Shown: one piece after another, positions 41,994-57,902 of the stretch | Position numbering within the stretch: position 1 is the stretch's first letter | How the letters are laid out: the number at the start of each line of letters is the position of its first letter | Source: Actinokineospora auranticolor | Lineage (GTDB): Bacteria > Actinomycetota > Actinomycetes > Mycobacteriales > Pseudonocardiaceae | Length of the DNA stretch: 64,000 nucleotides | Direction: 5' to 3' | NCBI RefSeq assembly: GCF_002934265.1 | Contig: NZ_PTIX01000017.1 | Span: 1-64,000, forward strand | Made by a program: the position numbers and the translations under genes | The notes under the pieces: model-generated | Seen by the model: only the letters and a program-made list of their open reading frames with translations | Told to the model about the DNA's origin: nothing | Database searches by the model: none

Positions 41994-42475
41994 GAAGTCT
42001 GGGCAGCCCCTTCCTCGTCTCCGTAGGAGATGTGTGCGGCGCCAGAGAGGCCGGTGTTGAGTCGCCAACCGCGTAGGCTTGACCAGAAACTTTGTTGGTC
42101 GGCTTGTAGTTTTCGGGTAGTTCGGTTGGCGTCCATTAGGAGGAATGGGCGATCCAGGCCGCCGGTGGTCACTGGGCCGAACATGGGGCCGTCCATGCTG
42201 AGGCCTGCTTTGATCCGTTGGTCCTCGAACATGGTGTTGGCGGTGGTGCTGCCGCCCGCGGATACGCCGAACATGGCGATTCGGCGTAGGTCCAGGGCGT
42301 CGGGTAGTTCGCGGTGTTCGGCGTCGGGGTTGGTTCCGGTGTTGAGCAGTTGCAGTTGGTCTAGTACGAAACGGGTGTCGGCGACCCGCGTTCCGGCTGG
42401 GTCGGGGGCTGTGCCGTCGGGCGATGCCTGGGCCAGGTTGCCGTGATGTTGCGTTTCGAAGTGTTGAGCGTGGGT
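41994..42475 (-). pseudogene. 5'-truncated alpha/beta-hydrolase (PAF-AH-like) fragment
   Basis: The minus-strand frame enters directly behind the ABC permease stop and reads THAQHFETQHHGNLAQASPDG, RVADTRFVLDQLQLLN, the nucleophile elbow MFGVSAGGSTTANTM, then DRPFLLMDANRT and SGAAHISYGDEE, where the IS3 end interrupts it. The N-terminal half of the hydrolase is missing, so the gene was truncated as well as split. The remainder of the C-terminus is at 40538-40758. Confidence 0.78.
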
Positions 42476-43258
42476 TCATACGTCGCGGCGGGTCAGGCGC
42501 CAGGTGGCTGCCGTGATGCCGACGGCGAGGTAGGTCAGGCAGACGATCAGGGCTGATCCCGGGGGTGGCCAGTCGGGGTCGTGGAACGTTGTCCAGGTGA
42601 GGCCTTCCGCTGCCGCGGCTGGAGACCAGTGGATCAGGGCTGTGGAGCCGTCGGGGGAGATCGCTTTGAAGACCGTGGTGGAGAGGAACATCAAACCGGT
42701 GGTGAGTGTGGTCGCGCCTGCGGTGTGGCGGAGCAGGGTGCCGATCGCGGCGCCGAGGATCGCGGCTGTGCACAGGTAGAAACCCTGGCCCAGCAACGCG
42801 CGCAGGACGTTTGGGGTGTCCAGGGTGACGTCCAAGTGCTTGCCTGCCAGGACGGACTGTGCGGCGAAGAAGGCGGTGAAGGCCAGGGCCAGGCCGGTCA
42901 CCAGTGCCACGGTGCCGAGGACCAGCAGCTTTGCTGTGAGCACTCGGCCGCGCCGGGGTACCGCGGCGAACGTCGAGCGGATGGTGCCTGTGCTGTATTC
43001 CGCGGTGACGGCCAGGATGCCGAGGAGCGCGAAAGCCATTTGTGCCAATTGGAATCCGGTGAACGTGGTGAAAACGGGGTCGAACTCGGCACGGGCGCGT
43101 GCTGTCCAACTGTCCCATGCGCTGATCGTCGAGCGGGCCTGTAGTACGGCGATCGCGATGGTTGCGACCGTTGCGACGGCGAGGATCAAGGGGGTCGATC
43201 GGACCGAGCGCAGTTTCGTCCACTCGGCGGCGACCAGGCTTGTCGGGAAACGGGTCAT
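42476..43258 (-). CDS. ABC-2 type transporter permease
   Basis: A 260-aa protein with six hydrophobic helices (TPLILAVATVATIAIAVL, GFQLAQMAFALLGILAVTAEY, LLVLGTVALVTGLALAFTAFF and others) and the conserved AEYSTGTIRSTFAAVPRRGRVLTAK segment of ABC-2 permeases. It overlaps the ATPase stop by ATGA, forming a two-gene exporter. Its 3' end abuts the truncated hydrolase pseudogene. Confidence 0.9.
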   Translation of the reverse strand: MTRFPTSLVAAEWTKLRSVRSTPLILAVATVATIAIAVLQARSTISAWDSWTARARAEFDPVFTTFTGFQLAQMAFALLGILAVTAEYSTGTIRSTFAAVPRRGRVLTAKLLVLGTVALVTGLALAFTAFFAAQSVLAGKHLDVTLDTPNVLRALLGQGFYLCTAAILGAAIGTLLRHTAGATTLTTGLMFLSTTVFKAISPDGSTALIHWSPAAAAEGLTWTTFHDPDWPPPGSALIVCLTYLAVGITAATWRLTRRDV

Positions 43259-44175
43259 CGGGCGTCCTGTGGGCGTGGCTCGGCGCGGTATCGGAGTTCG
43301 GGGTCGGTGATGCGGCGGAAGACTTCCTCGAGTGAGGGTGGGCGTGGGGTCAGTTCGACGAGCGCGATGCCGTGTGTGGCGGCCGTGGCGGCGATCTCGG
43401 CCGGGTCGAGACCCGTCACCGCCAGGCCGTGGGCGGGTTCCGGTGCCACTGTGGCCCCGCGAGCGGTGAGCAGCGTGGCGAGCGGTGTGTCGCAGGCGGT
43501 GCGGACCAGCACGTCGCCGCCGTCTGAGCGGACCAAATCCGCCATGCCGGAGTCCGACAGCAGCCTGCCGCGGGCGAGGATCAGGACGTGGTCGGCGGTC
43601 AGCTGCATCTCGCTCATCAGGTGGCTGGAGATCAGCACCGTGCGGCCCTCGGCGGCCAGCGACCGGATCAGCCCGCGGATCCAGTGCACGCCGTCGGGGT
43701 CGAGGCCGTTGACCGGTTCGTCGAAGATCAGGACCTGGGGGTCACCGAGCAGGGCCGCGGCGATCCCGAGCCGCTGCTTCATGCCGAGCGAGAAACCGCC
43801 GACACGTCGGTGTCCTTCCTCGGTCAGGCCGGTGCGGCGCAGCACTTCGGCGACCCGGCCGCGTGGGATGTCGTTGGTCTGCGCGAGCCACAGCAGGTGG
43901 TCGCGGGCGCGCCGGCCGCCGTGGGTGGCGTGCGCGTCGAGCAGGGCGCCGACCTGCCGCAACGGTTGGGTCAGTGCGCGGTATGGCCGTCCGTTGATCC
44001 GCACGCGGCCGTGTGTTGGCGAGTCCAGGCCGAGGATCAGTCGGATGGTGGTGGATTTGCCCGCGCCGTTCGGGCCGAGGAAACCGGTCACCCGCCCGGG
44101 TAGGACGCGGAAGGTCAGGCGGTCCACCGCGCGGTGGCGGCCGTAGGTCTTGGTCAGCTCATCAGCTTCGATCAT
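43255..44175 (-). CDS. ABC transporter ATP-binding protein (exporter)
   Basis: About 306 aa from ATG 44175 (MIEADELTKTYGRH). Walker A GPNGAGKST, signature variant FSLGMKQRLGIA, Walker B VLIFDEPVNGLD, H-loop ISSHLMSEM. The drug-exporter (DrrA/CcmA-like) class. Divergent from the adjacent histidine kinase gene with a shared palindrome between them, so export is probably under control of that two-component system. Confidence 0.93.
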   Translation of the reverse strand: MIEADELTKTYGRHRAVDRLTFRVLPGRVTGFLGPNGAGKSTTIRLILGLDSPTHGRVRINGRPYRALTQPLRQVGALLDAHATHGGRRARDHLLWLAQTNDIPRGRVAEVLRRTGLTEEGHRRVGGFSLGMKQRLGIAAALLGDPQVLIFDEPVNGLDPDGVHWIRGLIRSLAAEGRTVLISSHLMSEMQLTADHVLILARGRLLSDSGMADLVRSDGGDVLVRTACDTPLATLLTARGATVAPEPAHGLAVTGLDPAEIAATAATHGIALVELTPRPPSLEEVFRRITDPELRYRAEPRPQDAR

Positions 44176-44252
44176 GGGCACTCCCCTTCTGGTTGACCCA
44201 CCGTGCCGGGTTGGTGCCTGCTCCGTCATCGCCGCACGGGCAGGCGCCCCGC

Positions 44253-44276
44253 GGCGTATGCCCGTGGGCATACGCC
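44253..44276. promoter_or_regulatory. 24-bp palindrome, candidate response-regulator operator
   Basis: GGCGTATGCCC (44253-44263) and GGGCATACGCC (44266-44276) are perfect 11-bp arms separated by GT. It lies between the divergent ATPase (start 44175) and kinase (start 44322) genes, with 77 bp and 45 bp to the respective starts. LuxR/NarL-type regulators bind such dyads as dimers; binding by the adjacent regulator is inferred. Confidence 0.65.
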
Positions 44277-44321
44277 TGGAGAGTGATGTGCGCGGCGGTG
44301 GTGCCTGGCTACGGTCGGGCG

Positions 44322-45443
44322 ATGAGGATCGACGTGCGCCCGCCGCTGCGGCCGGGACACTGGTTCGCGCTGGACTGCGTCGCGGCCGTCGCGGTCGCGC
44401 TGGTGTGGGGCGGCCCGCTACTCGGTGGGCACGGCGAGGCGCCGCGGTGGGTCGGTCTGCTCGGTGCCACTCTTCTTGCCGTGCCGCTCTTGCTGCGACG
44501 ACGGTGGCCGTGGGTGGCGTTCGGGCTGGGCATTCCGGCGTTCGGCATGTCGCTGGCGACGTCGGTGGTGCCGGTGGTGCCGTTCGCGTCCGTGCCGATG
44601 GCGGTGGTCGCGTATTCGTCCGCGGCACGAGGATCCCGCCGCGCGTACGCGGCGCTCGCGGCGGTCGTGGTCGTGGTCGCCGCCGCTACCACCTGGAATG
44701 GACAGTGGGTGGCGGTTCTGCTCCCCGGTGCCGTCGTGGTGATCGGGTGGAGTGCGGGGTTGTTGCGGGCGCAGTATCTCGGGTATGCGCGAGTCCTTGC
44801 GGCGCAACGGGAACGCGAAGCCGATGCGCTGGTCACCGATGAGCGCCTGCGCATCGCGCGGGAGCTGCACGATGTCGTCGCGCACAGCATGAGCGTGATC
44901 ACCGTGCAGGCCGACATGGGCAGGCTGGTGTTCGACCGCAAGCCCGCCGCCGCGGCCGCCGCGCTCGGCGTCATCGAGACCACCGGTCGCGAAGCGCTGA
45001 CAGAGCTGCGTCGGATGCTGGGTGTGTTGCGGGACAACGACGTGCGCGGCGTGCTCGAACCGGCACCGGGCCTGGCTGGACTGGACGGCCTGGTCGCGCG
45101 CACGGCGGCCGCCGGAATCAGCGTCGACGTCGTGGTGCGCGGCACGCCACGGCCGCTGCCCGCCGGGGTCGATGTTTCGGCCTACCGGATCGTGCAGGAG
45201 GCCCTGACGAACGTGGTCAAGCACGCCGGGACCCCGACGTGCCGCGTCACGGTCGTCTACGGGCAGGACGCCGTGCTGCTGACGGTCAACGACGACGGGC
45301 GCGGCGGGCCGCACGGCCCAGGTGGGCACGGGCTGGTCGGGATGCGTGAGCGGGCCGCGCTGTGCGGCGGCGAGTTGCGCGCGGGCGCGGTGCCCGGCGG
45401 GTTCGAGGTCGCCGCGCGGCTGCCGGACGGGGACGGCCGGTGA
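44322..45443 (+). CDS. Sensor histidine kinase, NarL-associated type
   Basis: About 373 aa from ATG 44322; an in-frame ATG at 44286 is possible. Four to five N-terminal membrane helices, HisKA_3 phosphoacceptor in RIARELHDVVAHSMSVI (His183), and an HATPase domain with AYRIVQEALTNVVKHAG and DDGRGG...GHGLVGMRERA. The typical actinobacterial DesK/NarX-like kinase. Its stop overlaps the regulator start by GTGA. Confidence 0.93.
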   Translation: MRIDVRPPLRPGHWFALDCVAAVAVALVWGGPLLGGHGEAPRWVGLLGATLLAVPLLLRRRWPWVAFGLGIPAFGMSLATSVVPVVPFASVPMAVVAYSSAARGSRRAYAALAAVVVVVAAATTWNGQWVAVLLPGAVVVIGWSAGLLRAQYLGYARVLAAQREREADALVTDERLRIARELHDVVAHSMSVITVQADMGRLVFDRKPAAAAAALGVIETTGREALTELRRMLGVLRDNDVRGVLEPAPGLAGLDGLVARTAAAGISVDVVVRGTPRPLPAGVDVSAYRIVQEALTNVVKHAGTPTCRVTVVYGQDAVLLTVNDDGRGGPHGPGGHGLVGMRERAALCGGELRAGAVPGGFEVAARLPDGDGR

Positions 45444-46090
45444 TCCGGGTGCTCGTCGCCGACGACCAGGCGCTCGTCCGGGCCGGTTTCCGCGAGATCG
45501 TCGGCTGGGCCGACGATCTCGACGTCGTCGGGGAGGCCGCGAACGGCGCGGAGGCGGTCCGGTTGGCGGCGACCCACCGGCCCGACGTCGTGGTGATGGA
45601 CATCCGGATGCCCGAACTGGACGGCATCGAGGCGACCCGGCGGATCACCGCCGAGCTGACCGGGGTGCGGGTACTCGTGCTGACCACGTTCGACCTGGAC
45701 GAGTACGTGTTCGCGGCCCTGCGCGCGGGCGCGAGCGGCTTCCTGCTCAAGGACACCCCATCGGCCGAGTTGCTGGCGGCGATCCGGGTGGTCGCGTCCG
45801 GCGACGCACTACTGGCCCCCGGCGTGACGCGCAGGCTCATCGCGGAGTTCGCGACCCAATCCGCCCGGCCGTCCCCGCGCGCGGTCCTGCCCACCACGAT
45901 CACCGCGCGGGAGCGGGAAGTCCTCACCCTGGTCGCGGCCGGGCTGTCCAACGCCGAGATCGGACTACGACTGCACATCACCACCGGGACCGCGAAAACC
46001 CACGTCGGGCACCTCATGCTCAAACTGGCCGCGCGCGACCGCGTGCACCTGGTGATCCTCGCGTACCAGACCGGCCTCGCCGCGGTGTGA
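45440..46090 (+). CDS. NarL/LuxR-type response regulator
   Basis: A 216-aa protein from GTG 45440. Receiver domain with phospho-acceptor Asp54 (VVVMDIRMPELDG), conserved Lys in GFLLKDTP, and a C-terminal LuxR HTH (ITAREREVLTLVAAGLSNAEI, GTAKTHVGHLMLKL). Partner of the upstream kinase and the likely ligand of the palindrome at 44253. Confidence 0.95.
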   Translation: MIRVLVADDQALVRAGFREIVGWADDLDVVGEAANGAEAVRLAATHRPDVVVMDIRMPELDGIEATRRITAELTGVRVLVLTTFDLDEYVFAALRAGASGFLLKDTPSAELLAAIRVVASGDALLAPGVTRRLIAEFATQSARPSPRAVLPTTITAREREVLTLVAAGLSNAEIGLRLHITTGTAKTHVGHLMLKLAARDRVHLVILAYQTGLAAV

Positions 46091-46181
46091 ACGAGGAAGG
46101 ACGCGGCGGTCGCTCGTACGCGGGCGCAGGTCGGAATAGGATCGGCGCGGGGCTCTGGCCGTCCGTGTTGAGGAGGATCGA

Positions 46182-46651: not shown

Positions 46652-47410
46652 ATGCCAACCGCTCTCGTCACGGGTGCCACGGCGGGCCTCGGGCTGGAAT
46701 TCGCACGTCAGCTGGCCGCGCGCGGCGAGGCGGTCGTGCTCGTCGCCCGGACCGAAGCCCGGTTGCGCGAGGTGGCCGCCGAGCTTGCGGCCGCCTACGG
46801 CGTCGCGACCGAGGTGCTCGTCGCCGACCTCGCGGATCGGGCCGACGTCGATCGGGTGGCCGAGCGGGCCAGGACCGTCGATACCGTGGTGAACAACGCC
46901 GGTTTCGGCCTGCGGCAACGCTTCCTGGACAACGACATCGCCGCGGAGGAGGAATTGTTCCAGGTCCTGTGCCGGTCCGTCCTCGCCATCTGCCACGCGG
47001 CGGGTCAGGGCATGCGCGAGCGCGGTCGGGGGCGGATCATCAACGTGTCCAGCGTGGCGGGGTGGTTGACCTCCGGCACGTACTCGGCCGCCAAGTCGTG
47101 GGTCACCGTGTTCAGCGAGAGCCTCTCGGGTGAGTGCGCGCCGTCCGGGGTGACGGTCACGGCGTTGTGCCCCGGGTTCATCCGCACGGAGTTCCACCAG
47201 CGCGCCGGAATCGGAACCGGGTCGATCCCGGACCGGGCCTGGCTGGACGCCCGGCGGGTCGTGCGCACCTGCTTGCGGGACGCGGGCAAGGGCAAGGTGA
47301 TCTCGGTCCCGGGCACGCTGTACAAGGCGATCGTGCTCGCCGCGCGCTTGGCGCCTCGGCAACTGGTGCGGCGCAGCGGTACCGGCGTCGCGAAGGCCCG
47401 CCGCGGATGA
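46652..47410 (+). CDS. Short-chain dehydrogenase/reductase A
   Basis: A 252-aa classical SDR: cofactor loop TGATAGLGLEFARQLA, NNAGFG, catalytic Ser region VSSVAGW, and YSAAK. The C-terminal region (RVVRTCLRDAGKGKVISVPG, LYKAIVLAARLAPRQLVRR) resembles SDRs of the DltE/YqjQ-like group acting on lipid-like substrates; the substrate is not identifiable. A close paralogue follows by ATGA overlap. Confidence 0.9.
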   Translation: MPTALVTGATAGLGLEFARQLAARGEAVVLVARTEARLREVAAELAAAYGVATEVLVADLADRADVDRVAERARTVDTVVNNAGFGLRQRFLDNDIAAEEELFQVLCRSVLAICHAAGQGMRERGRGRIINVSSVAGWLTSGTYSAAKSWVTVFSESLSGECAPSGVTVTALCPGFIRTEFHQRAGIGTGSIPDRAWLDARRVVRTCLRDAGKGKVISVPGTLYKAIVLAARLAPRQLVRRSGTGVAKARRG

Positions 47411-48168
47411 GCACGGCGTTGGTCACCGGCGCGACCTCGGGGATCGGGCTGGAGTTCGCCCGCCTGCTCGGCGCGCGCGGCCACGACCTCGTGCTCGTCT
47501 CGAACGAGGCCGACCGGCTCGACGAGGTCCGCGCTGAGTTGGCCGAGCGGTACGGCGTCGGGACCGAGGCCCTGCACGCCGACCTGTCCGCGCGCGCCGA
47601 TGTCGAGCGGGTCGCCGAGCGGGCGCGCGCCGTCGACGTCTTGGTCAACAACGCCGGGTTCGGGTTGCGGAAGTGGTTCCTCGACAACGAGCGCGCCGAC
47701 GAGGAGCGGCTGCTCGACGTGCTGTGCCGCGCGGTGCTGGTGGTCAGCCACGCCGCCGGGCGCGGCATGCGCGCGCGGGGCCGCGGCTCGATCATCACCG
47801 TGGCCAGCATCGCGGGCTGGGTGGCGGGCGGCACGTACTCGGCGGCCAAGTCGTGGAGCATCGCGTTCAGCGAGGGCCTGGCGGGCGAGTTGGCGGGCAC
47901 CGGTGTCACCGTGACGGTGCTGTGCCCCGGGTTCGTCCGCACGCAGTTCCACCGGCGCTCCGGGATCAGCGTCGACAAGCTGCCGGACGCCCTGTGGCTC
48001 GACCCGCGGCGGGTCGTCCGCGACTGCCTCGCCGACGTCGACCGGGGCAAGGTCGTCTCCGTGCCCAGTCGGGTCTACAAAGGACTTTCCTGGCTCGCCC
48101 GGATCGCGCCGCGGCGGTTCGTCCGCAGCGGCGGGAAGATCACCGACCACCGCCCACCCCTGCGGTGA
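47407..48168 (+). CDS. Short-chain dehydrogenase/reductase B
   Basis: About 253 aa from ATG 47407, overlapping the stop of SDR A. TGATSGIGLEFARLLG, NNAGFGLRKWFLDNE, ASIAGW and YSAAK are intact. Highly similar to SDR A throughout (shared FGLR..FLDN, CPGFVRTQFH/CPGFIRTEFH), so the pair arose by tandem duplication. It lies 16 bp before the MMPL gene and is probably in the same transcript. Confidence 0.92.
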   Translation: MSTALVTGATSGIGLEFARLLGARGHDLVLVSNEADRLDEVRAELAERYGVGTEALHADLSARADVERVAERARAVDVLVNNAGFGLRKWFLDNERADEERLLDVLCRAVLVVSHAAGRGMRARGRGSIITVASIAGWVAGGTYSAAKSWSIAFSEGLAGELAGTGVTVTVLCPGFVRTQFHRRSGISVDKLPDALWLDPRRVVRDCLADVDRGKVVSVPSRVYKGLSWLARIAPRRFVRSGGKITDHRPPLR

Positions 48169-48184
48169 GGCCTGGAGGACCCCT

Positions 48185-50308
48185 GTGAGTGCTGCGGTAC
48201 ACGACGGCCGGTTCGCCCGGGCTGTCGCGGCGGTCGGTCGGGCGAGCGCCCGGCACCGGTTCGTCGTGATCGGCGCGTGGGTGCTGCTGGTGGCGGCGCT
48301 GCTGACGAGCGCGCGGCTGATCGGCACGCCGACGGACAACGACGTGAGCCTGCCGGGCACCGACGCCCAGCTCGTCCGCGACCTGACCACGTCGGCGTCC
48401 GCTCCCCTCACCTCCGGGACCGTCATCCTGGTCACCGAGCAAGGACGGCTGGACGACGAGGCCCGCTCCGGCGTGGTCGCGGCGACCGCGGCCGCTCTGC
48501 GCGGGACCGAGCACGTAACCACGGTGAAACCACCCTCCACGCGGGACGGTTCACTGTCCGCGGACGGGCGCACCGGCTGGTTCACGGTGGGCATGGACGT
48601 GCGCCGGGCGGAACTCACCAAACCCGTGGCGCGCACCGTCACCGACGCCGCGCGGCCCGCCGCCGACGCCGGTCTGCGCGTGCTCCCCGGCGGCGCCTTC
48701 GCCCAGGTCGTCGACGGTTCGGGCAGCACGGGCAACGAGTACTTCGGGCTGATCCTGGCCGCCCTGGTGCTGTTCCTCGCGCTCGGCGGGATCGTCGGCG
48801 CGCTGCTGCCGCTGCTGGCCTCGGGTCTGTCGGTGCTCGCGACGCTGGAAACCGTCGGCCTCGCCGGGAACCTGACCTCGATGCCCGCCGTGGCGTCGAC
48901 CCTGGCCCTGATGGTCGGCCTCGGCGTCGGCATCGACTACTCGTTGTTCCTGCTCAGCCGGTTCCGCACGCTGACGCGGTCCGGGCTGTCGGTGCCGGAC
49001 GCGATCGAGCGCTCGGTCGCCGACTCCGGCACGGCGGTGGCCGTCGCGGGGGTGACGGTGGCGGTCGCGCTCGCGGGGCTGGGCCTGACCGAGGTGCCGC
49101 TGCTGCGGACGCTGGCCTGGACGTGCGGGATCGCGGTCACGTTCGCCGTGCTCGCCGCGCTCACCCTGCTCCCCGCGCTGACCTCGCTCGCGGGCACCCG
49201 GCTCGCGCGCGGCGGGCGGCTGCACCGGCGGCTGACCAGCCGCGCGGGTTCCGGTTTCTGGGCGCGGCAGGCGGATCGGGTGACGCGCAGGCCGTGGCTG
49301 GCGGGCGGGCTCGCGCTCGTGCTGCTGGCGCTGCTCGCCGCGCCCGCGACCGACCTGCGCCTCGGTCAACTCGACGCGGGGTCGTCGCCGGAGGTCACGG
49401 CGGTCCGGCAGGCCAACGACGCGATCTCGGCGGCGTTCGGGCCGGGGACGGGGACGCCGCTCACCGTGCTCGGTCAGGTGTCGACGCCGGTCACCGATGC
49501 CAAGGACCCGCGCGTGGGCCGGTTCGTGGCGATGGTGCGTGACCAGCCGGAGGTCGCGGCGGTCGGACCCGTGACGCCGACGGCGGACGGGCTGGCCTTC
49601 GCGGTTCAGGTCGTTCCCTCGACCGCGGGCGGGGATCCCGCGACGGCGGACCTCGTGCACCGGTTGCGTGAGCGGTCCGTGCCGGAGGTGACCGTGCACG
49701 TCGGTGGGACCACGGCGGCCCGGGTGGACCTCGCCGACCGGGTGAGCGACAAGTTGCCGCTGGTCATCGCGGTGGTGCTGCTGCTGTCGGTCGCGGTGCT
49801 GCTGCTGACTTTCCGGGCGCCGCTGCTCGCGCTGAAGGCGGCGGTGATGGACTTCATCTCGATCGGCGCGGCCTACGGTGTGCTGACTGCGGTGTTCACC
49901 TGGGGTTGGGGGGTGACGTGGATCGGGCTCTCCGGTCCGGTGCCGGTGCCGAGCTTCGTGCCGCTGATGCTCTTCGCACTGCTGTTCGGGCTGTCGATGG
50001 ACTACGAGGTGTTCCTGCTCAGCGATGTGCGGCGGCGTTGGACGCAGACCCGCGACAACCTGCGGTCGGTGCGCGAGGGGCTGCTCGGCACGGGTGGGGT
50101 GATCACCGCGGCGGCCACGATCATGGTCGGCGTGTTCCTCGCGTTCGTGCCGAACAACGACCCGACGATCAAGATGTTCGGGGTGGGGATGGCGGTCGCG
50201 ATCGCCGTCGACGCGACCGTCGTCCGGTGCCTGCTCGTGCCCGCCACCATGGCGATGCTCGGCGACCGCAACTGGTGGACACCGGGCCGCAAGCGCTTGC
50301 CCGCCTGA
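48185..50308 (+). CDS. MMPL-family RND transporter
   Basis: A 707-aa protein with about 11-12 membrane helices and two MMPL halves. Characteristic motifs are GLGVGIDYSLFLLSRFRT in the first half and FGLSMDYEVFLLSDVRRRW in the second, each with the Asp/Tyr pair used in proton relay. GTG start. Exports lipids or hydrophobic metabolites in actinobacteria. With the SDR pair it may form a lipid modification/export unit. It converges on the seven-gene lipid operon, whose last gene ends 27 bp away. Confidence 0.94.
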   Translation: MSAAVHDGRFARAVAAVGRASARHRFVVIGAWVLLVAALLTSARLIGTPTDNDVSLPGTDAQLVRDLTTSASAPLTSGTVILVTEQGRLDDEARSGVVAATAAALRGTEHVTTVKPPSTRDGSLSADGRTGWFTVGMDVRRAELTKPVARTVTDAARPAADAGLRVLPGGAFAQVVDGSGSTGNEYFGLILAALVLFLALGGIVGALLPLLASGLSVLATLETVGLAGNLTSMPAVASTLALMVGLGVGIDYSLFLLSRFRTLTRSGLSVPDAIERSVADSGTAVAVAGVTVAVALAGLGLTEVPLLRTLAWTCGIAVTFAVLAALTLLPALTSLAGTRLARGGRLHRRLTSRAGSGFWARQADRVTRRPWLAGGLALVLLALLAAPATDLRLGQLDAGSSPEVTAVRQANDAISAAFGPGTGTPLTVLGQVSTPVTDAKDPRVGRFVAMVRDQPEVAAVGPVTPTADGLAFAVQVVPSTAGGDPATADLVHRLRERSVPEVTVHVGGTTAARVDLADRVSDKLPLVIAVVLLLSVAVLLLTFRAPLLALKAAVMDFISIGAAYGVLTAVFTWGWGVTWIGLSGPVPVPSFVPLMLFALLFGLSMDYEVFLLSDVRRRWTQTRDNLRSVREGLLGTGGVITAAATIMVGVFLAFVPNNDPTIKMFGVGMAVAIAVDATVVRCLLVPATMAMLGDRNWWTPGRKRLPA

Positions 50309-50335
50309 GCCGCGTCGTCGAACTCCAGGGGTCGG

Positions 50336-51259
50336 CTACCCCACGGACGCCCCGCCTGGGCTGTCTTGCCGTTTCGCGCGCCAGGGCAGGCGGGGACGCC
50401 AACCGGTGAAAGCCATGGTGGCGGTGAAGATGACGGCCGCGATGGCCATGCCCGCCAAGCCGTCGACCAGGTAGTGGTGGTTGAGGTAGACCGAGGCCAG
50501 TAGGACCAAGGCGAAGAAGGCCCAGGCCACGGTGCGCAGGGAGCGGTAGTGGGTGGCGAAGAGGGCGGCGAGGAAGGTCTGTCCCACGTGGAGGGATGGG
50601 AGCGCGCCGAAGACGCTTGAGCTGGCCTTGTATTGGCCGGAGAACCAGGATACTCCGAGGAGTTGGTCGAAGCGTGTGCCGCCGGCGGGTTCGGGTGGGG
50701 CGGTGACGACCGCGGGGCCCGTGCCGTATTCCGTGACGTACCAGGGTGGGGCCGTCGGGTGCAGTTGGTGGATGGTGTACCCGATGACATGTAGGGCGAG
50801 CAGGGCCCACATGATGACCCACGCGTCCGTGCGGCGTTCCTTGAAGCGCCACCAGGCGGCCAGGAGGACGAAGCCGGGCATGAATCCCAAGTAGACGATG
50901 CCGCAGAGGAAGTCGAGGATCGGGGTGGTGTGGGTCTGGAACCACTCCGCCACGGTGATCGGGCCGTTGGCGGTGCGCACGCTGAACCAGGCCAGTTCCC
51001 AGTCCCGGGGGCCCGTGACGTCGATGGCCCGCCGGGTGACGGCCGGGGACAGGACGCGTTGGCGGTCGTAGATGAGGAGTTGGATCAGGAATGGCGAGGC
51101 GAACAGGGCGAAGGCCCGCCAGCGGTGGCAGGTGAGGACGATGGTGGCCGCTGTGGCCGCCAGGACCAGCCGGAACAGGAGGGGGGCGCCGGAGAGCAGC
51201 AGGAAGCCGATGTAGGCCACGCCCGCGATGCGGACGGCGGGAACCAGCCAGCGGTTCAC
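50336..51259 (-). CDS. PAP2-superfamily membrane protein, IPC-synthase-like
   Basis: About 307 aa from GTG 51259, overlapping the preceding stop (GTGA). Six membrane helices with PAP2_3-type motifs: YTIHQLHPTAPPWYV, FGALPSLHVGQTFLAALF with the catalytic His, and YLNHHYLVDGLAGMAIA. Related enzymes are inositol-phosphoceramide synthases and lipid phosphatases, so this protein may dephosphorylate a phospholipid or transfer a phospho-headgroup. Last gene of the seven-gene operon. Confidence 0.88.
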   Translation of the reverse strand: MNRWLVPAVRIAGVAYIGFLLLSGAPLLFRLVLAATAATIVLTCHRWRAFALFASPFLIQLLIYDRQRVLSPAVTRRAIDVTGPRDWELAWFSVRTANGPITVAEWFQTHTTPILDFLCGIVYLGFMPGFVLLAAWWRFKERRTDAWVIMWALLALHVIGYTIHQLHPTAPPWYVTEYGTGPAVVTAPPEPAGGTRFDQLLGVSWFSGQYKASSSVFGALPSLHVGQTFLAALFATHYRSLRTVAWAFFALVLLASVYLNHHYLVDGLAGMAIAAVIFTATMAFTGWRPRLPWRAKRQDSPGGASVG

Positions 51260-51846
51260 TGCGCGGAGGCCGCCGTCGTCGAGTCGGGGAGGTCGCGGAC
51301 GCGGCGCACGAGGACGTAGTCCTGGGTGTAGGCGTCGGCGAGTCCGCCGCTCTGGGGGTCGAGCAGCCAGGGCATGGCGAGGCGCTCGGGGACGGCGAGG
51401 GGCTTGGTGAAGGGGACGTGGGTGCGGAAGACGTGGTCCCACACCGCCGACGTGACGCCGAAGTTGCGCTTCGGGGTGTGGAAGTGGTGCTGGACGTGCT
51501 GCAACCGCAGCCACCGACCGTAGGACGTGCGCGGGGCCCTGGTGTGGATGACGCGGTGGACGGACTCGTAGACGAGGTACATGAACCCGAGCCCGCACGG
51601 GAAAGCCGCCGCCTCGAAGTCCCCAAGGGACAGTCGCAGGATCGCGACGAGCACACCGACCACGAAGACGACCCCGATGAGCTTCCGGGGCCAGCCGACC
51701 ATGTGCAGCGGGTCCGCGTGGTGCAGCGCGTGCTCCTTCGCGAACGGGTTGCGGAGCCCGCGGGAGTGGAAGAGCCGCCCGTGCAGCAACCACTCCAGGA
51801 AGGTCCACGTGAGGACCCCCGCGGCGAAGTACCCGAGCAGAGCCAT
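51256..51846 (-). CDS. Fatty-acid/sterol hydroxylase-superfamily membrane protein
   Basis: A 196-aa protein. Histidine clusters of membrane di-iron hydroxylases: EHALHHAD, HRVIHT, LQHVQHHFHT and WDHVFRTH. Hydrophobic helices flank them (LLGYFAAGVLTWTFLEWLL, LIGVVFVVGVLVAIL). It would hydroxylate or desaturate an acyl or terpenoid chain at the membrane. Fifth step enzyme type in the operon; 21 bp after the KAS gene. Confidence 0.88.
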   Translation of the reverse strand: MALLGYFAAGVLTWTFLEWLLHGRLFHSRGLRNPFAKEHALHHADPLHMVGWPRKLIGVVFVVGVLVAILRLSLGDFEAAAFPCGLGFMYLVYESVHRVIHTRAPRTSYGRWLRLQHVQHHFHTPKRNFGVTSAVWDHVFRTHVPFTKPLAVPERLAMPWLLDPQSGGLADAYTQDYVLVRRVRDLPDSTTAASAQ

Positions 51847-51867
51847 GGTGCGTTCCCCCTGTCTTCG

Positions 51868-53073
51868 TCAAGCCGCCTGCGGGCGGCCGAACACGATCGA
51901 CGCGTTGAGTCCGCCGAACGCGAACGAGTTCGACATCACCAGGCGGGTCCGGTGCTCCCGCGCGGTGTTCGGCACGCAGTCGAGGTCGCAGTCCGGGTCC
52001 GGGCCGTCGAAGTTGGCCGTCGGCGGCACCACGCCGTGCTCGATGGCCAGCACGGCGACCACGGCCTCGATGCCGCCGGACGCGCCGAGCGCGTGGCCGG
52101 TGGTGCCCTTCGTCGAGGACATCACGGGAACCGAGTCCGCGCCGAAAACGGTTTTGAGCGCGGTGGTCTCGGCCGGGTCGTTGGTCGGTGTGCCCGTGCC
52201 GTGGGCGTTGACGTAGTCGATCTCGTCGGGCGCGACCGCGGCCGAACGCAGCGCGCCCGTCATGGCCGCCGCCATCCCGCTCGCGGAGGGCCGGGTGAGG
52301 TGCCCGGCGTCCGCGCTCGCGCCGAAACCCGCCACTTGCGCTCGAGGTGTGAATCCCCGCGCCCGCGCGTGCGCGGCCGATTCGAGCACGAGCATGCCCG
52401 CGCCCTCGGCGAGCACGAGCCCGGTGCGGCCCGCCGCGAACGGGCGGCAGGTGTCTTTCGCCAGCACGCCAAGGGATTCCCAGGCCCGCAGGGATCCCTC
52501 GACGAGGCACGCCTCAGAACCACCGCACACGGCGACGTCGACGGCACCCGACTCCACGAGCTGCGCGGCCACCCCGATCGCGTGCGTGGCCGCGGCACAG
52601 GCACTGGCCACGACGAAGGCGGGGCCGCGGAAGCCGAACGTCATGCTGATCCAGCTCGCCGCCGAGCTGCCCATGCTCTTCGGCACGGTCAGCGGGCTCA
52701 ACCGGTTGGCGCGCTGCCGGTACAGCCGCTCGTACTGCTCGTCCAAGGTCGCGATGCCCGGCGCGCCACTGCCGACGACCACCGCGACCCGGTCGGGGTC
52801 GGGGAGATCCGCGTCCAGAGCGGCGTCGGCCAGCGCGGCGCGCGCGGCGGCCACGGCCAGCAACGCCGACCGGTCGCACAGCGCGGGCCGCGCGACCCCG
52901 GCTCCGGCGATCCACTCCGTGCCGCGGATCTCCGCCACCGGCACGTCCACCCCTGGGCAGCCCGATGGCGGCGCGAACACCGGGGACGGGTCGACGAGCC
53001 CGTCCCAGAACCGCTTCAGGCTCGACCCCGACTGGGTCAGCACCCCGAGCCCGCTGACGTGCACGCCCCGCAT
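51868..53073 (-). CDS. Beta-ketoacyl synthase (FabF/KAS II-like)
   Basis: About 401 aa from ATG 53073 (MRGVHVSGLGVLTQSG). Complete Cys-His-His triad: Cys159 in VASACAAATHAIG, His in VNAHGTGTPTNDPAE and His in KGTTGHALGASG; C-terminal NSFAFGGLNASIVFG. No chain-length-factor substitution, so it is a catalytic condensing enzyme. It overlaps the KR-ACP stop by ATGA, so the ACP of that protein is the likely carrier. Confidence 0.94.
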   Translation of the reverse strand: MRGVHVSGLGVLTQSGSSLKRFWDGLVDPSPVFAPPSGCPGVDVPVAEIRGTEWIAGAGVARPALCDRSALLAVAAARAALADAALDADLPDPDRVAVVVGSGAPGIATLDEQYERLYRQRANRLSPLTVPKSMGSSAASWISMTFGFRGPAFVVASACAAATHAIGVAAQLVESGAVDVAVCGGSEACLVEGSLRAWESLGVLAKDTCRPFAAGRTGLVLAEGAGMLVLESAAHARARGFTPRAQVAGFGASADAGHLTRPSASGMAAAMTGALRSAAVAPDEIDYVNAHGTGTPTNDPAETTALKTVFGADSVPVMSSTKGTTGHALGASGGIEAVVAVLAIEHGVVPPTANFDGPDPDCDLDCVPNTAREHRTRLVMSNSFAFGGLNASIVFGRPQAA

Positions 53074-54824
53074 CAGGCGGTCCCGGACACCGCGAGCGCG
53101 TCGTCGCGGACGCGTCGGTCGAGGAGTTCGGCCATGGCCACCAGGGTGTTGTTCATGCCCAGCAGCAACTCGTCGAGGCCGAGCCGGACGGCGAACTCGC
53201 GCTCGATGACGAAGAGCATCTCCAGGGCGATGAGCGAGTCGATGTCCATCGACGCCAGCGGCAGCGCGGGGTCGAGGTCGCTCGGCGCGCACGAGAGCAT
53301 CTGCCCGAGCTGCTCGCGGATCACCTCGACGATGTACCCGACGCGCTCCGCGTCCGGCAGCTCCGCCAACCGCTCCAGCGAGAGCCCGACCGGCTGGGTG
53401 GCGGCGAGCGGCTCCAGCACGGGCCGCGAACCGGCCCAGGTCAACAACTCCGCGGCCGAGTCGTCCCACGAGGCCACGGCGAGGTTCGGCTCGTCCCGCG
53501 CCAGCGCCATGTCGACGGTCGAGAGCACCTGGTCGACGGTCAGTCGCCGCAGGCCGAGCCGCTCCCAGACCTCGTGCAGTTGCGCGCCGTCCGGTGTGGC
53601 GCCGAACCCCACCTCGCCGATGGGCCCCCACGCGATGCTGACGGCGCGGACCCGTCCACGGTTCAGGCGGCGCGCCACGCCGTCGAGGACCGCGTTCGCC
53701 GCCGCGTAGCCCGCCTGCCCCGGTGAGCCGAAGGTGGCGGCGGCAGAGGAGAACAGCACCATCGCTTCCGCGCCGAGTTCTTCGGCGAGTTCGCCGAGCA
53801 GCAGCGCGCCACTTGCTTTAGCCGACAACAATACCCTGGTCTGTTCCTCGGTGGAGTTCATCAGTGAAGACACACAGGACAGCCCGTCGATCCGCCAGTT
53901 CGAGGCGAGGTGGAACACGCCGCCGATGGCGTCACCTCGGGCGCGCAAGCGGTTGGTGAGCGCGCGCACGGCCGCCGGGTCGCCGACGTCGAGCACCTCG
54001 TACTCCGCCGCGCAGCCCAGGTTCGCCAGCAGCCGGAGGTTGCGCTCGCGGTCGCGGTCGAGCGGACTGCGGCCGAGCACCAGCAGGCGTTCGGCGCCGC
54101 GTCGGGCCAGCCAGCGCTGGACTTCGAAGCTGAGCCCCGCCGCGCCGCCGCTGACCACGTGCAACCGTCGCGGCGAAAGGCCTTGGCCGCTGGCGACCGG
54201 GGGCAGCGCCGAGGCGCGCAACCGGGCCACGAGTGGGCCGTCGTCGCGCAGCAGGACCTCGTCCTCGGCGGAGTCGGAGAGCAGGTAGTCCGCCAGCAGC
54301 CTGCCCGCCGCGGTCGGGTCGTCGACGTCGAGGTCGACGAGTCCGCCCCAGCTCTCGGGGCGTTCGGCGGCGTGGCACCGGCCCAGCGCCCAGGCGAAGT
54401 CGTGCTCGGGCCGGACCGCCTCGCGCGCGCCCGGGCCGTGCAGGCCGGTCCGCGTGACGATCCACAGCCTCGCGCCCGCGTTGGCCACCCGCTGACACAG
54501 GCGCACGGCCGCGTGCGCCCAGGCCCAACCCTCGTCGCCGGTCAGGTCGGATCCGGTCAGTGGCGCGGTCTCGTCGAGGAAGAACACACACCGCTGACCC
54601 TGGATCTCGTCGGGCGCTGCCGCGAGATCCGCGCGGTGGACTCGGGTGCTCGGGTCCGTCGCACCGAGTGCCGCCGCGAGGGCGTCCGCGCTCCGACTCG
54701 GCCCCCACGACAGCAGAACCCACTCGGACTCGGTGGCGGCAGCAGGCCGGGGCTCGAACTCGGCGGCTTTCTCCCAGTTCAGGCCAAGGATTCGGGTCTG
54801 GTCGTCCTCGTGGACGCCGGTCAT
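53073..54824 (-). CDS. Ketoreductase-ACP fusion (PKS-like)
   Basis: A 583-aa protein. The first 220 residues resemble the structural half of a modular-PKS ketoreductase. Residues about 220-400 are the catalytic half with NADPH loop VVSGGAAGLSFE, catalytic Ser in FSSAAATFG and Tyr/Asn in GYAAAN (Tyr about 373). The usual LDD motif of B-type ketoreductases is absent. Residues about 490-570 are an acyl carrier protein with phosphopantetheine Ser530 in MDIDSLIALEM. There is no KS, AT, DH or ER domain, so condensation comes from the separate KAS genes and extender loading from elsewhere. Confidence 0.92.
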   Translation of the reverse strand: MTGVHEDDQTRILGLNWEKAAEFEPRPAAATESEWVLLSWGPSRSADALAAALGATDPSTRVHRADLAAAPDEIQGQRCVFFLDETAPLTGSDLTGDEGWAWAHAAVRLCQRVANAGARLWIVTRTGLHGPGAREAVRPEHDFAWALGRCHAAERPESWGGLVDLDVDDPTAAGRLLADYLLSDSAEDEVLLRDDGPLVARLRASALPPVASGQGLSPRRLHVVSGGAAGLSFEVQRWLARRGAERLLVLGRSPLDRDRERNLRLLANLGCAAEYEVLDVGDPAAVRALTNRLRARGDAIGGVFHLASNWRIDGLSCVSSLMNSTEEQTRVLLSAKASGALLLGELAEELGAEAMVLFSSAAATFGSPGQAGYAAANAVLDGVARRLNRGRVRAVSIAWGPIGEVGFGATPDGAQLHEVWERLGLRRLTVDQVLSTVDMALARDEPNLAVASWDDSAAELLTWAGSRPVLEPLAATQPVGLSLERLAELPDAERVGYIVEVIREQLGQMLSCAPSDLDPALPLASMDIDSLIALEMLFVIEREFAVRLGLDELLLGMNNTLVAMAELLDRRVRDDALAVSGTA

Positions 54825-55891
54825 CGCGGGCTCCTTGATGTCGGCACGTGGGCGAGGGACTCGTTCAGCTCGGCGAGCAGCGGCAGCTGCGCGCGCACCT
54901 GGGCGCCGCGCAGTCCGAAGTCCACGAGGCAGGCGACCTCGTCGACGCCGAGGTCGCGCACGGTCTTGAGGGTGCGGTGCGCGTCGTCGACGGTGCCGAT
55001 GAGGGAACGGCCGTCGATGGCGCGCTGGAAGTGCGCCTGGGCGAACTGGTCGACGTGCCGGGCGGTGAACCGGTCGAGGTCGACGCCGCGACCGCGCGCT
55101 TTCGCCAGTCCGCGCGCCAGCGGTGTGATGCTCTTGAGGTAGTCGCGGTACGGGTCGCGGACGAGGCCGACGACCTCGTCGCGGTCCGTGCCGAGGTGGG
55201 TGTGCAGCATGAGCGCGACGCGGCCGTCCGCCGGGTCGTGACCGGCGGCCGCGAACTCCTGGCGGTAGGCCGAGATGTTCTCCGCCAGCTTGTCCAGGTT
55301 GCCGTCGAGGACGTGGGTCAGCACGCCTTCACCGCGCCTGCCCGCGCCGCGGAAGGTGTCCGTGCTCTGCGACGCGGCGATCCACACCGTGAGGTCCGGC
55401 TGCACCGGGCGCGGCAGCGGGCGCACGCGGATGTCCTCGCCCGAACCGGAACGGGCCTCGTGCAGGCCGCCGCGCCACAGGGCCCGCACCTGGTCGATCA
55501 GCTCGAAGAGCACGGCGTGCCTGCGCTCGTAGCGGTCGGGGTGGAAGGCGAAGTCGGCGGGCGACCAGCCGGAGGCGAACCCGGCTTCGAGCCGCCCGCC
55601 GCTGAGGTTGTCCAGAATGGACAGGTCTTCGGCCACCCGCAGCGGGTCGTGCAGGGCGACGACCAGGCTGCCGGTGCGCAGCGTCAGCCGCTCGGTGCGC
55701 GCGGCGACGGCGGCCAGCAGCGGTACCGGGTTCGGGAACGGGGCGCCGAAGCTGGAGAAGTGCCGTTCCGGCAGCCACACGCCCGCGAACCCGCTGCGGT
55801 CGGCGAACGCGGCCAGGTCCAGGACGGTCCGGTACTGGTCGGCGGCGTTGGACTCCAACGCGCCCGCGAAGAACATCAGGCTCAGTCGCAT
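54821..55891 (-). CDS. Luciferase-like monooxygenase, MupA/Atu3640 type
   Basis: A 356-aa flavin-dependent LLM protein. Diagnostic blocks are GVWLPERHFSSFGAPFPNPVPLLAAVA, LRTGSLVVALHDPLRVAEDLSILDNLSGGR and ASGWSPADFAFHPDRYERRHAV, as in the family found within or beside PKS/NRPS lines, where it acts on carrier-bound acyl chains. Here it stands alone but overlaps the KR-ACP gene by 4 bp, so the ACP-bound chain is the likely substrate. Confidence 0.92.
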   Translation of the reverse strand: MRLSLMFFAGALESNAADQYRTVLDLAAFADRSGFAGVWLPERHFSSFGAPFPNPVPLLAAVAARTERLTLRTGSLVVALHDPLRVAEDLSILDNLSGGRLEAGFASGWSPADFAFHPDRYERRHAVLFELIDQVRALWRGGLHEARSGSGEDIRVRPLPRPVQPDLTVWIAASQSTDTFRGAGRRGEGVLTHVLDGNLDKLAENISAYRQEFAAAGHDPADGRVALMLHTHLGTDRDEVVGLVRDPYRDYLKSITPLARGLAKARGRGVDLDRFTARHVDQFAQAHFQRAIDGRSLIGTVDDAHRTLKTVRDLGVDEVACLVDFGLRGAQVRAQLPLLAELNESLAHVPTSRSPR

Positions 55892-56976
55892 GGTTCACCT
55901 TCCACGTAGGTGAAGCCGCCGTACATGAACTTGGTCGCCTCCGCGCCGAGCACGCCGAGCACCTGCCCGGGCCGCAGCACGTGCTGCTCGCGGACGCTGT
56001 GCAGGCCGATCCAGGTCGAGGCGGAGCCGGTGTTGCCGTAGTCGGCGGCGCAGTTGTGGAATTTCTTCTCCGGGATGCCCAGCACCGGGGACAGCACCTC
56101 GCCCATGCGTCCGTTCGCCTGGTGGGTCAGGTACCGGTCGACCCGCGGCTCGTCCAGCCCCACCGACGTCAAGGCCTCGAAGCCCGCGCGGAACAGGTCC
56201 AGGCCCTCGGCCCGGGCGAGGTTGTAGTCGTTGACGAAACCCATGGAACCCGGCTGGTCGATGGCGTGCGCCGGTTTGGCCGAACCGCCCGTGACGAGGC
56301 TGAAGGCGGACGGTTTACCCAGGCCCAGCGTGCCGAAGTAGACGTTCGACAGGTAGGCGCCGTCGCCGGGGTACCGGGAGAGGATGACGGCGCCCGCGCC
56401 GTCGCCCATCTGCGCCGCGTTGACCAGCTGGCCGCGGTCCGCGCGGGCTTCCTCGACGTCGAACAGCACCGAGCCCGTCTCGCTGCCGACGACGCACACG
56501 CGGTCGGCGGCCGTGGTGGTCAGCATCGAACTCGCGATGGTCAGCGCGTTGGCGAAGCCCGTGCACGCCTGGCGCAGTTCCATGTACTGGCCGGTGTAGC
56601 CGAGCCGGTCGGCGACCCAGGAGACGTTGGGCGGTAGCAGGGTGTGGGGCGAGGTCGTGTGACCGATGACCAGGTCCACGTCGTCGATCGTGAGCCCGGC
56701 CTGCCCGAGCGCGGCGCGGACGGCGCGTTCGGACAGCTCGGGGTTGGTGTCCCCGGGTCGGGGCAGTTCGCGGGTCGCGAGGCGGTCGCGGGCCAGGAAC
56801 CGCTGGTACACGCCGAGTTGGTCGGCGATCTTCCCGACGAACTGGGACTGGTGCGCGCTGACGCCCAGGGACATGAACCGCACCATGTCCGCATTGGACA
56901 CAGGGACTCCCGGCATGGCCACGCCGGTGCCGAGCACGCCGAGCCGGGCGGGGAGCAGCCGCGGCGCCCGGCTCAT
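55882..56976 (-). CDS. Beta-ketoacyl synthase III (FabH-like)
   Basis: About 364 aa from ATG 56976. Cys138 in LRQACTGFANAL, His in LTHQANGRMGE and Asn in DYGNTGSAST form the Cys-His-Asn triad of initiating condensing enzymes. The N-terminal sequence and the insertion around residues 60-90 (QLGVYQRFLARDRLATREL) differ from housekeeping FabH, suggesting a specialised starter or acyl-transfer reaction. Its end overlaps the monooxygenase start by 10 bp. Confidence 0.93.
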   Translation of the reverse strand: MSRAPRLLPARLGVLGTGVAMPGVPVSNADMVRFMSLGVSAHQSQFVGKIADQLGVYQRFLARDRLATRELPRPGDTNPELSERAVRAALGQAGLTIDDVDLVIGHTTSPHTLLPPNVSWVADRLGYTGQYMELRQACTGFANALTIASSMLTTTAADRVCVVGSETGSVLFDVEEARADRGQLVNAAQMGDGAGAVILSRYPGDGAYLSNVYFGTLGLGKPSAFSLVTGGSAKPAHAIDQPGSMGFVNDYNLARAEGLDLFRAGFEALTSVGLDEPRVDRYLTHQANGRMGEVLSPVLGIPEKKFHNCAADYGNTGSASTWIGLHSVREQHVLRPGQVLGVLGAEATKFMYGGFTYVEGEPCD

Positions 56977-57902
56977 TTCTCGACCCGCACGGGCTCGACC
57001 GCGGACCGTGGCGGCAGGAACAGCGGGTTGGTGGTGAAGCGCCTGAGATAGGCCACGGTGAAGCTGCGCTCGTAGGGGATGCCGCGGGCGTGGAAGTCCT
57101 CCCGCAGGACCTTGGCCACCTTGACCAACCGCGGCCCCGGCACGTCGGGGTACGCGTGGTGCTCGGCGTGCCGGTTGGCACCGCTGAGGAACACCTGGCC
57201 GAAGAGGTCGCAGTCGAAGGACGTGCACGCCTGGAGGGTGTCCTCGGCGACCAAACCTTGGTGGTAGACCATGTCGTTGAGGCTGCCGAGAACCGACCCC
57301 GCGATGAGCGTCCACAGCAGGAAGTACCACTGCGCGCTCGGCAGGACCTGGCTGAGCGTGGCGTACAGGGCCACCGCCGCGACCGGTCCCCACAGCGCCC
57401 GGACCACACCGGTGTGCTTCAACGCGATGATCGGGGCGCGGACCAGGAGGAACACCGGCGCGCCGACGACCGAGGCGACCGTGAGCAGCGCCATCGTGGC
57501 GGGCGCGGACCGCCGGGGGAAAATGATCTCCTGTGGATCCGCCTCCGTGCGGAACTTGGCGTGGTGGGTCAGGTGCGCGGCGCGGTACCCCGGGTAGGAC
57601 GTGCCGACGATGACCGACATCGCCTCGCCGAGCCACCGGTTGACCTTCCGGCTGGCCGCCAGGTGCCCGTGCGCGGACTCGTGCATCAGCCCGAAGACGC
57701 CGATGAACTGCAGCGCGCCCAGCACGACGAAGAAGACCTTGACGGGCGCGGCGAGCGGGCCCGCGTAGGCGGACCCGAAGATGATCGAGAGAGCCAGCAC
57801 CGCCAGGTAGCCGACGAGCTTCCACTTCTGCCAGGCAACGGGAACGAAGTGCTCCGGAGCCAATCCACCCCGGCGCCTGGTTACGGAAACCAACTGTGAC
57901 AC
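56973..57902 (-). CDS. Membrane fatty-acid desaturase
   Basis: A 309-aa protein from GTG 57902, preceded by a G-rich ribosome-binding site. Three histidine boxes of the acyl-lipid desaturase family: HESAHGHL, HLTHHAKF and NRHAEHHAYP, with four membrane helices. It would introduce a double bond (or hydroxylate) in a fatty acyl chain. First gene of the seven-gene operon; its stop overlaps the KAS III start by ATGA. Confidence 0.93.
   Translation of the reverse strand: MSQLVSVTRRRGGLAPEHFVPVAWQKWKLVGYLAVLALSIIFGSAYAGPLAAPVKVFFVVLGALQFIGVFGLMHESAHGHLAASRKVNRWLGEAMSVIVGTSYPGYRAAHLTHHAKFRTEADPQEIIFPRRSAPATMALLTVASVVGAPVFLLVRAPIIALKHTGVVRALWGPVAAVALYATLSQVLPSAQWYFLLWTLIAGSVLGSLNDMVYHQGLVAEDTLQACTSFDCDLFGQVFLSGANRHAEHHAYPDVPGPRLVKVAKVLREDFHARGIPYERSFTVAYLRRFTTNPLFLPPRSAVEPVRVEK

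Follow-up and report, generated by a model that had tools for sequence, protein, structure and literature searches.

A rare, patchily distributed actinobacterial gene cluster with ketosynthases, membrane oxidases and an AUR1-like enzyme: a tentative route to an exported, oxygenated acyl lipid

Organization, distribution and conservation of the cluster

We analysed a 64,000-nucleotide stretch of the Actinokineospora auranticolor genome (contig NZ_PTIX01000017.1, positions 1 to 64,000; hereafter the window), which contains an operon of seven genes coding for two ketosynthases, a flavin-dependent monooxygenase, a ketoreductase joined to an acyl carrier domain, two membrane proteins of oxidase families and a membrane enzyme of the AUR1 type. 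A preliminary description of this DNA had read the seven genes as a single unit on one strand, and this was borne out, as all seven open reading frames were confirmed on the minus strand at the coordinates it had assigned to them and the whole set recurs in four species. From the first gene to the last, these are:

56973..57902, minus strand: gene 1, membrane protein of the FA_desaturase family, acting as desaturase or hydroxylase, 309 aa; Pfam PF00487, E 2e-30
55882..56976, minus strand: gene 2, beta-ketoacyl synthase III (KAS III)-like ketosynthase, 364 aa; ACP_syn_III and its C-terminal domain (Pfam)
54821..55891, minus strand: gene 3, flavin mononucleotide-dependent luciferase-like monooxygenase (LLM) of the MupA/Atu3671 family, 356 aa; Bac_luciferase, TIGR04020
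53073..54824, minus strand: gene 4, polyketide synthase (PKS)-type ketoreductase (KR) followed by one acyl carrier protein (ACP) domain (KR-ACP), 583 aa; KR and PP-binding
51868..53073, minus strand: gene 5, KAS II-like ketosynthase, 401 aa; ketoacyl-synt N and C
51256..51846, minus strand: gene 6, membrane-bound di-iron enzyme of the FA_hydroxylase family, 196 aa; PF04116
50336..51259, minus strand: gene 7, PAP2_3 membrane enzyme of the AUR1/phosphoinositol-dihydroceramide synthase type, 307 aa; PF14378

Each of the seven domain assignments exceeds its Pfam gathering score, in agreement with the enzyme identities proposed earlier, and three of the seven products belong to integral-membrane families. 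Going from gene 1 to gene 7, the first four pairs of neighbours overlap by 4, 10, 4 and 1 bp, the fifth pair is separated by 21 bp and the sixth overlaps by 4 bp; the earlier summary of these junctions as 4-10 bp overlaps or a 21-bp gap holds for the most part but misses the 1-bp overlap between the KR-ACP and KAS II genes. Convergent with the operon and 27 bp from its end lies a gene for an MMPL-family transporter, which is preceded by two genes for short-chain dehydrogenases/reductases (SDRs):

46652..47410, plus strand: SDR1 reductase, 252 aa; closest to the curated mycolate reductase model, under its cut-off
47407..48168, plus strand: SDR2 reductase, 253 aa; closest to the curated mycolate reductase model, under its cut-off
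48185..50308, plus strand: MMPL-family transporter, 707 aa; PF03176, E 3e-71

The conserved unit is about ten genes (46652-57902), with the plus-strand SDR1, SDR2 and MMPL genes included; the seven genes to which it had been limited do co-occur, but the two SDRs and the transporter had been missed. As first described, the operon has its own starter and elongation synthases, a carrier and a reductase, and Pfam searches at E 0.01 of the seven proteins and the three convergent ones gave no match to acyltransferase (AT), dehydratase or dedicated enoylreductase families, a weak adh_short_C2 match reflecting the general SDR fold. Pfam likewise finds no serine palmitoyltransferase among the ten cluster proteins. 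Elsewhere in the genomes, relatives on the TIGR01825 model occur in all three carriers searched (those other than Streptomyces clavuligerus), none of them over the cut-off; as this model also matches 13 of 14 controls, it is not specific for serine palmitoyltransferase. The G+C content is 69-74% across 46-58 kb of the window; promoter and terminator scans returned 0 and 1 candidates, respectively, versus 0.3 and 3.6 in shuffled sequences, and an Rfam search gave no match within the cluster.

The seven-gene set was found in four species, namely A. auranticolor, Streptomyces clavuligerus (on a megaplasmid; locus L021), Streptosporangium saharense (L022) and Herbidospora mongoliensis (L023), and all seven genes stand together in every one of the four loci carrying this KAS III. 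With KAS III as the probe, some match is obtained at E 0.001 in 59 of 61 genomes (the window's own and 60 relatives), the best in a relative having E 5e-26 and 31% identity; at E 1e-35 the sole genome matched is the window's own, both in the genus (1 of 16, none of the 15 others) and in a sample of the phylum (1 of 396). Five of 72,556 plasmid records match, three of them being the S. clavuligerus megaplasmid at 81% identity and the other two lying at 28-29%. A scan of GTDB r220 contigs with two exact 7-residue patterns, which divergent copies may escape and which did not return S. clavuligerus although its protein contains both (its plasmid is probably absent from these contigs), gave 52 candidate stretches and from these two relatives, S. 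saharense and H. mongoliensis; the same two species alone were recovered at E 1e-60 among 297 genomes of Herbidospora's family. No relative was found in 19 pattern stretches from viral contigs. The genome samples used here and below (61, 16, 396, 296 and 297) overlap in part and are not additive.

Conserved co-occurrence had been suggested as a check on the operon: all seven genes are together in each of the distant loci with KAS III, but within the genus KAS III is confined to the window's own genome. Being absent from close relatives and whole in distant loci, the cluster is therefore a patchily spread unit and not a local accident, and recurrence of the entire set in four species led us to reject both such an accident and a fragment. 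Its rare and patchy occurrence over distant lineages points to lateral exchange. In six regions reached through distant KAS III homologues as candidate sister clusters, nothing matched LLM, FA hydroxylase, PAP2, desaturase, MMPL or SDR at E 1e-4; what these regions did contain were other KAS II-like proteins, at 28-34%, and a single KR-ACP match, at 31%. Similarly, the three plasmid DNA matches to KAS II or LLM that were opened, among 20 listed of 174 records, all lay in unrelated clusters.

Across the three other loci, the proteins of the operon are 46-81% identical to those of the window. In the order S. clavuligerus/S. saharense/H. mongoliensis, these identities are 81/73/70% for KAS III, 78/73/71% for LLM, 69/65/67% for KR-ACP, 77/73/73% for KAS II, 68/46/46% for PAP2, 67/54/80% for the FA hydroxylase and 74/61/62% for the desaturase. 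The gene order is kept, except that the PAP2 and FA hydroxylase genes are exchanged in Herbidospora, and the neighbouring genes differ between the four loci. All 27 pairwise gene comparisons with the window show a nonsynonymous rate (dN) below the synonymous rate (dS), with ratios of about 0.16-0.52 by simple NG86 estimates. S. clavuligerus and Herbidospora, too, have the MMPL gene and both SDR genes close to the operon, and the three are accordingly found with it in three of the four loci. In the window, the MMPL protein is clearly closer to that of Herbidospora (83-84%) than to that of S. clavuligerus (74%), as is the FA hydroxylase (80% versus 67%) and, slightly, the SDRs (81-83% versus 79-80%), whereas for the remaining six operon proteins the nearer counterpart is that of S. 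clavuligerus, by a small margin in the case of KR-ACP. Given these differences in the closest locus, the cluster may be a mosaic of exchanged modules.

Catalytic signatures and affinities of the encoded enzymes

In KAS III, C138-H285-N315 is invariant in the four loci and aligns with the Cys, His and Asn of solved FabH-type enzymes; in KAS II, C159-H291-H327 is likewise invariant and was aligned with a solved FabF-type enzyme, and we take both triads to have the corresponding catalytic roles. With these triads kept, KAS III scores 100.3 bits on the housekeeping FabH model TIGR00747 and KAS II 369.6 bits on the FabF model TIGR03150, neither of them reaching the cut-off (292.1 and 493.75, respectively). 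The KR-ACP protein aligns with the AmphB and EryAI ketoreductases over about 300-430 residues, and K336, S359/S360, Y373 and N377 together with S530 of the carrier, which are presumably its functional residues, are invariant in all four loci.

By its profile scores the LLM protein is a full member of the MupA family: it passes TIGR04020 (MupA/Atu3671) with 403.2 bits against a cut-off of 244.45, its counterparts in the other three loci (402.9, 393.9 and 392.6 bits) all do so as well, and it is the sole protein over this cut-off among 19 matches in its own genome. The nearest solved protein in PDB is PuwE (E 2e-85). In published work, MupA in vitro alpha-hydroxylates a beta-keto chain only, on the right ACP and before beta-reduction (PMC10953402), and the puwainaphycin oxygenase has been suggested to take part in making a 3-amino-2-hydroxy acyl unit (PMC4219810). 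By analogy, LLM would alpha-hydroxylate a carrier-bound beta-ketoacyl chain. The simplest product of a KR acting without a dehydratase would then be an alpha,beta-dihydroxyacyl-ACP, for which dehydratase and enoylreductase are therefore not needed. The MupA and PuwE systems have the same oxygenase family as LLM, likewise acting beside a KR and a carrier, and are modular PKS or mixed PKS/nonribosomal peptide synthetase assemblies (PMC10953402, PMC4219810); unlike them, the present cluster has discrete KAS III, KAS II and KR-ACP proteins, membrane oxidases and an AUR1-like enzyme.

In PDB, the desaturase profile matches only alkane 1-monooxygenase (E 5e-4) and that of the FA hydroxylase only SCS7, a ceramide fatty-acid hydroxylase (E 5e-13). 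The SCS7/FA2H ceramide fatty-acid 2-hydroxylases are by profile the only solved relatives of the cluster FA hydroxylase, which unlike them has 196 aa; its relatives outside the cluster on plasmids are about 30% alike at best.

For the PAP2 protein, the only PDB match by profile is AUR1, the catalytic subunit of inositol phosphorylceramide synthase (E 5e-23). It carries the PSLH and H-x3-D motifs, whose residues we assume to be catalytic, and an AUR1-like stretch before them; AUR1 and BT_1522 have in common with it the PAP2_3 fold family, the PSLH and HHYxxD motifs and the preceding stretch. On the curated model NF052609, the window protein has the best score among 296 phylum genomes (139 bits, the next 88). 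An unrooted tree of 17 sequences, restricted to the region covered by the AUR1 fragment, takes in for comparison nine further actinobacterial PAP2_3 proteins, those matching NF052609 best in the sample of 296 genomes. It separates these nine with an ultrafast bootstrap of 100 from a group made up of AUR1, the PAP2 proteins of the four loci and three proteins from Bacteroidota, and a further split (88) places AUR1 with the cluster proteins. The stretch before PSLH is common to the whole group of AUR1, cluster and Bacteroidota proteins and does not occur in the nine. At E 1e-8, the plasmid records with such a PAP2 protein number six, three from S. clavuligerus and three from Bacteroidota. In Spirosoma and Hymenobacter the gene lies near PgpA and GtrA genes, and in Hymenobacter also near one for a CDP-alcohol phosphatidyltransferase, a neighbourhood that resembles the Bacteroides inositol-lipid locus; the Prevotella record is unannotated. 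Loss of the AUR1 homologue BT_1522 in Bacteroides abolished phosphoinositol dihydroceramide and complementation restored it (PMC9246714). The earlier view of the last operon product as a headgroup-type enzyme is supported by these profile matches and the tree: based on its sequence, we predict that it works like a phosphoinositol-dihydroceramide synthase, and by analogy it may transfer phosphoinositol from phosphatidylinositol (PI) to a lipid hydroxyl.

A possible product and the competing explanations

Based on the recurrence of the set, its family memberships and its intact catalytic residues, we tentatively favor, with appreciable reservation, the view that the cluster has spread by lateral exchange and makes an acyl lipid that is oxygenated at the alpha and beta positions, bears a phospho-headgroup (probably phosphoinositol) and is exported. 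The preliminary description had a carrier-bound lipid or polyketide in mind; the carrier itself stands, and we infer the product class and headgroup, along with all substrates, the order of the steps and export, from the enzyme families. KAS III would join an acyl starter to malonyl-ACP, which the host would load because the cluster encodes no AT. The MupA/PuwE-type flavin enzyme would place a hydroxyl on the alpha carbon of the beta-ketoacyl chain while this is bound to the carrier, and the KR of KR-ACP would reduce the beta-ketone to yield an alpha,beta-dihydroxyacyl-ACP. KAS II might add another unit or couple two chains, with a CmrA-like SDR reducing the ketone newly made by it, and the two membrane di-iron enzymes would oxidise the chain. 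The AUR1-like enzyme would then put the phospho-headgroup, most likely phosphoinositol from PI, on a free hydroxyl, and the MMPL protein would export the lipid. Such a route would be like inositol phosphorylceramide synthesis, but with the chain built by ketosynthases. If correct, this would be a bacterial membrane lipid with sphingolipid-style tailoring (the di-iron hydroxylase, the desaturase-family enzyme and the AUR1-type headgroup enzyme) that starts from ketosynthases and not from serine palmitoyltransferase. Among the carriers, S. clavuligerus is a strain long studied in the laboratory and used in industry.

Several observations weigh against this proposal. The S. saharense genome has no MMPL match above 37% identity, and its operon stands without this gene; export and the SDR steps are therefore not obligatory (the SDR search in this species covered the 21-kb locus and a 54-kb stretch). 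In the same species, the KR (L022:12174-13871) lacks nine residues after the GVFHLAS stretch. The AUR1-only and SCS7-only PDB matches are weak evidence by themselves, because PAP2_3 and FA_hydroxylase have few solved members, and the AUR1 branch in the PAP2 tree is long. Unlike AUR1 and BT_1522, the cluster PAP2 protein stays under the equivalog cut-off, with 139.6 bits on NF052609 against a curated threshold of 480 (128.7-132.2 bits in the other three loci); its Spirosoma and Hymenobacter relatives also remain under it (315.9 and 342.8 bits). Again unlike those systems, the cluster has by Pfam no serine palmitoyltransferase, inositol-phosphate synthase or PI synthase, and more generally no release enzyme, ligase or inositol gene. 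The SDRs reach 162.1 and 154.6 bits on the mycolate reductase model NF040690 and MMPL 204.1 bits on the MmpL3 model NF052608, short of the cut-offs of 380 and 1400. Furthermore, a homologue of prolipoprotein diacylglyceryl transferase (Lgt; PF01790), which has no role in the proposed pathway, adjoins the cluster in three of the four loci:

L021:30613-31806, S. clavuligerus: Lgt homologue, on the same strand as SDR1 and 42 bp away
L022:7553-8644, S. saharense: Lgt homologue beside the cluster
L023:5716-6666, H. mongoliensis: Lgt homologue beside the cluster

Each of the three proteins contains GNWFNNE, which resembles the GN[YW]FNQE of housekeeping copies, and in S. saharense and H. mongoliensis the cluster-side gene is a second genomic copy; these two proteins are 73% identical to each other. 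The S. clavuligerus protein is 48-52% identical to the other two cluster copies versus 52% to housekeeping copies. The window's genome has a single Lgt, on another contig, and none beside the cluster. The cluster-side Lgt may serve in resistance, act as a transferase in the biosynthesis or simply be a neighbour. An elaboration of the proposal that we regard as unlikely would bring it in: in a polyketide-style route to an inositol-phosphoryl lipid resembling a sphingolipid, an alpha,beta-dihydroxyacyl chain made by KAS III, the MupA-type alpha-hydroxylase and KR-ACP would replace the serine-derived sphingoid base and receive its phosphoinositol head from the AUR1-like enzyme. Once exported, the lipid may mimic a phospholipid closely enough to disturb lipoprotein maturation, which would account for the additional Lgt genes at three of the four loci. 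Were this so, the extra genes would mark lipoprotein maturation as a candidate target.

Another alternative is that the product is an antibacterial lipid resembling phosphatidylglycerol that would block the maturation of lipoproteins, with the additional Lgt as the resistant copy of the target. The Lgt gene beside three of four clusters, its status as a second copy in two of them and its position 42 bp from SDR1 on the same strand in the third are all in keeping with this, but the single, unlinked Lgt of the window's genome speaks against it, as does the S. clavuligerus protein, which is about equally close to housekeeping and cluster copies and may be independent; given also that Lgt could be biosynthetic instead, we hold this to be very unlikely. 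More weight belongs to a headgroup-free metabolite such as a small polyketide, alpha-hydroxy acid, lactone or signal, with PAP2 acting as a phosphatase and MMPL as a drug-type exporter. Phosphatases are common among PAP2 enzymes, polyketide and lipopeptide pathways include MupA-family members and the S. saharense operon stands without MMPL; nevertheless, the cluster PAP2 protein groups with headgroup transferases, apart from the nine other actinobacterial PAP2_3 proteins, and the three integral-membrane families of the operon would fit a membrane-bound substrate, which makes such a metabolite somewhat improbable.

Mycolate maturation and export provide the best curated models for three cluster proteins (CmrA for the two SDRs and MmpL3 for the transporter), and a mycolate-like branched beta-hydroxy lipid might be envisaged in which KAS II or KAS III couples two acyl chains, the SDRs reduce the beta-ketone like CmrA and MMPL exports the lipid like MmpL3. 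Although mycolate reductase is the first match of both SDRs (162 and 155 bits) and MmpL3 that of MMPL (204 bits), these scores are far under the cut-offs of 380, 380 and 1400 bits; moreover, unlike mycolate systems, the cluster has by Pfam neither a Pks13-like protein nor an acyl-AMP ligase, and S. saharense retains the operon without MMPL, making a product of this kind quite unlikely. Finally, the rarity of the set and its lack of an encoded AT or release enzyme might suggest a chance run or a decaying remnant of unrelated lipid genes. The full set, however, recurs in four species with different neighbours, dN is below dS throughout and the catalytic residues are intact, so that we consider this explanation highly improbable. 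The tentatively preferred reading remains the exported lipid with neighbouring oxygens and a phospho-headgroup.

With respect to known lipid and polyketide lines, aryl polyene, ladderane and polyunsaturated fatty acid (PUFA) systems have ketosynthases, a carrier and a ketoreductase in common with the cluster. These lines use dehydratases, and the PUFA lines also an AT and an enoylreductase; in contrast, none of the three families is found in the ten cluster proteins. The preliminary description knew of no line with this complement, and consistent with that a literature search, with most subscription papers outside its reach, found no paper describing the gene set; published listings of cryptic clusters may, however, already include the S. 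clavuligerus megaplasmid copy. All of the enzyme families are known, but their combination is new to us.

Flanking genes

The left flank of the cluster in the window comprises:

42471..46095: ABC-2 membrane protein, histidine kinase and response regulator (Pfam), outside the cluster and common to two sister species

The DNA of this flank is 79% identical to that of the two sister species (G009 and G012; 19.9 kb of each), and the identity stops at 46093 and 46095, immediately ahead of the cluster. The two-component system was rejected as a member of the cluster, since close orthologues of the histidine kinase (81% and 79%) are present in both sister species, which are without KAS III; a 52% match of the response regulator to one of Herbidospora was taken as generic. 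About 5 kb to the left of the cluster lies an rve integrase-core transposase gene with HTH_21 (41144-41803), within a stretch of lower G+C at 38-42 kb. Elsewhere in the window, Rfam detects an L31-Actinobacteria leader. At the other loci, an FkbM methyltransferase gene precedes the desaturase gene in Herbidospora (L023:8285-9073), where genes for a sulfotransferase, an AMP-binding enzyme and a pyridine-nucleotide oxidoreductase come after the operon (L023:16500-20180), and in S. saharense it is followed by genes for a SnoaL-like protein and a HAD-family hydrolase (L022:17292-18514). About 2.4 kb beyond the operon start in the window, a large SARP/AfsR-type regulator with BTAD, NB-ARC-like and TPR regions is encoded at 60333-63308, and this protein could control the operon.

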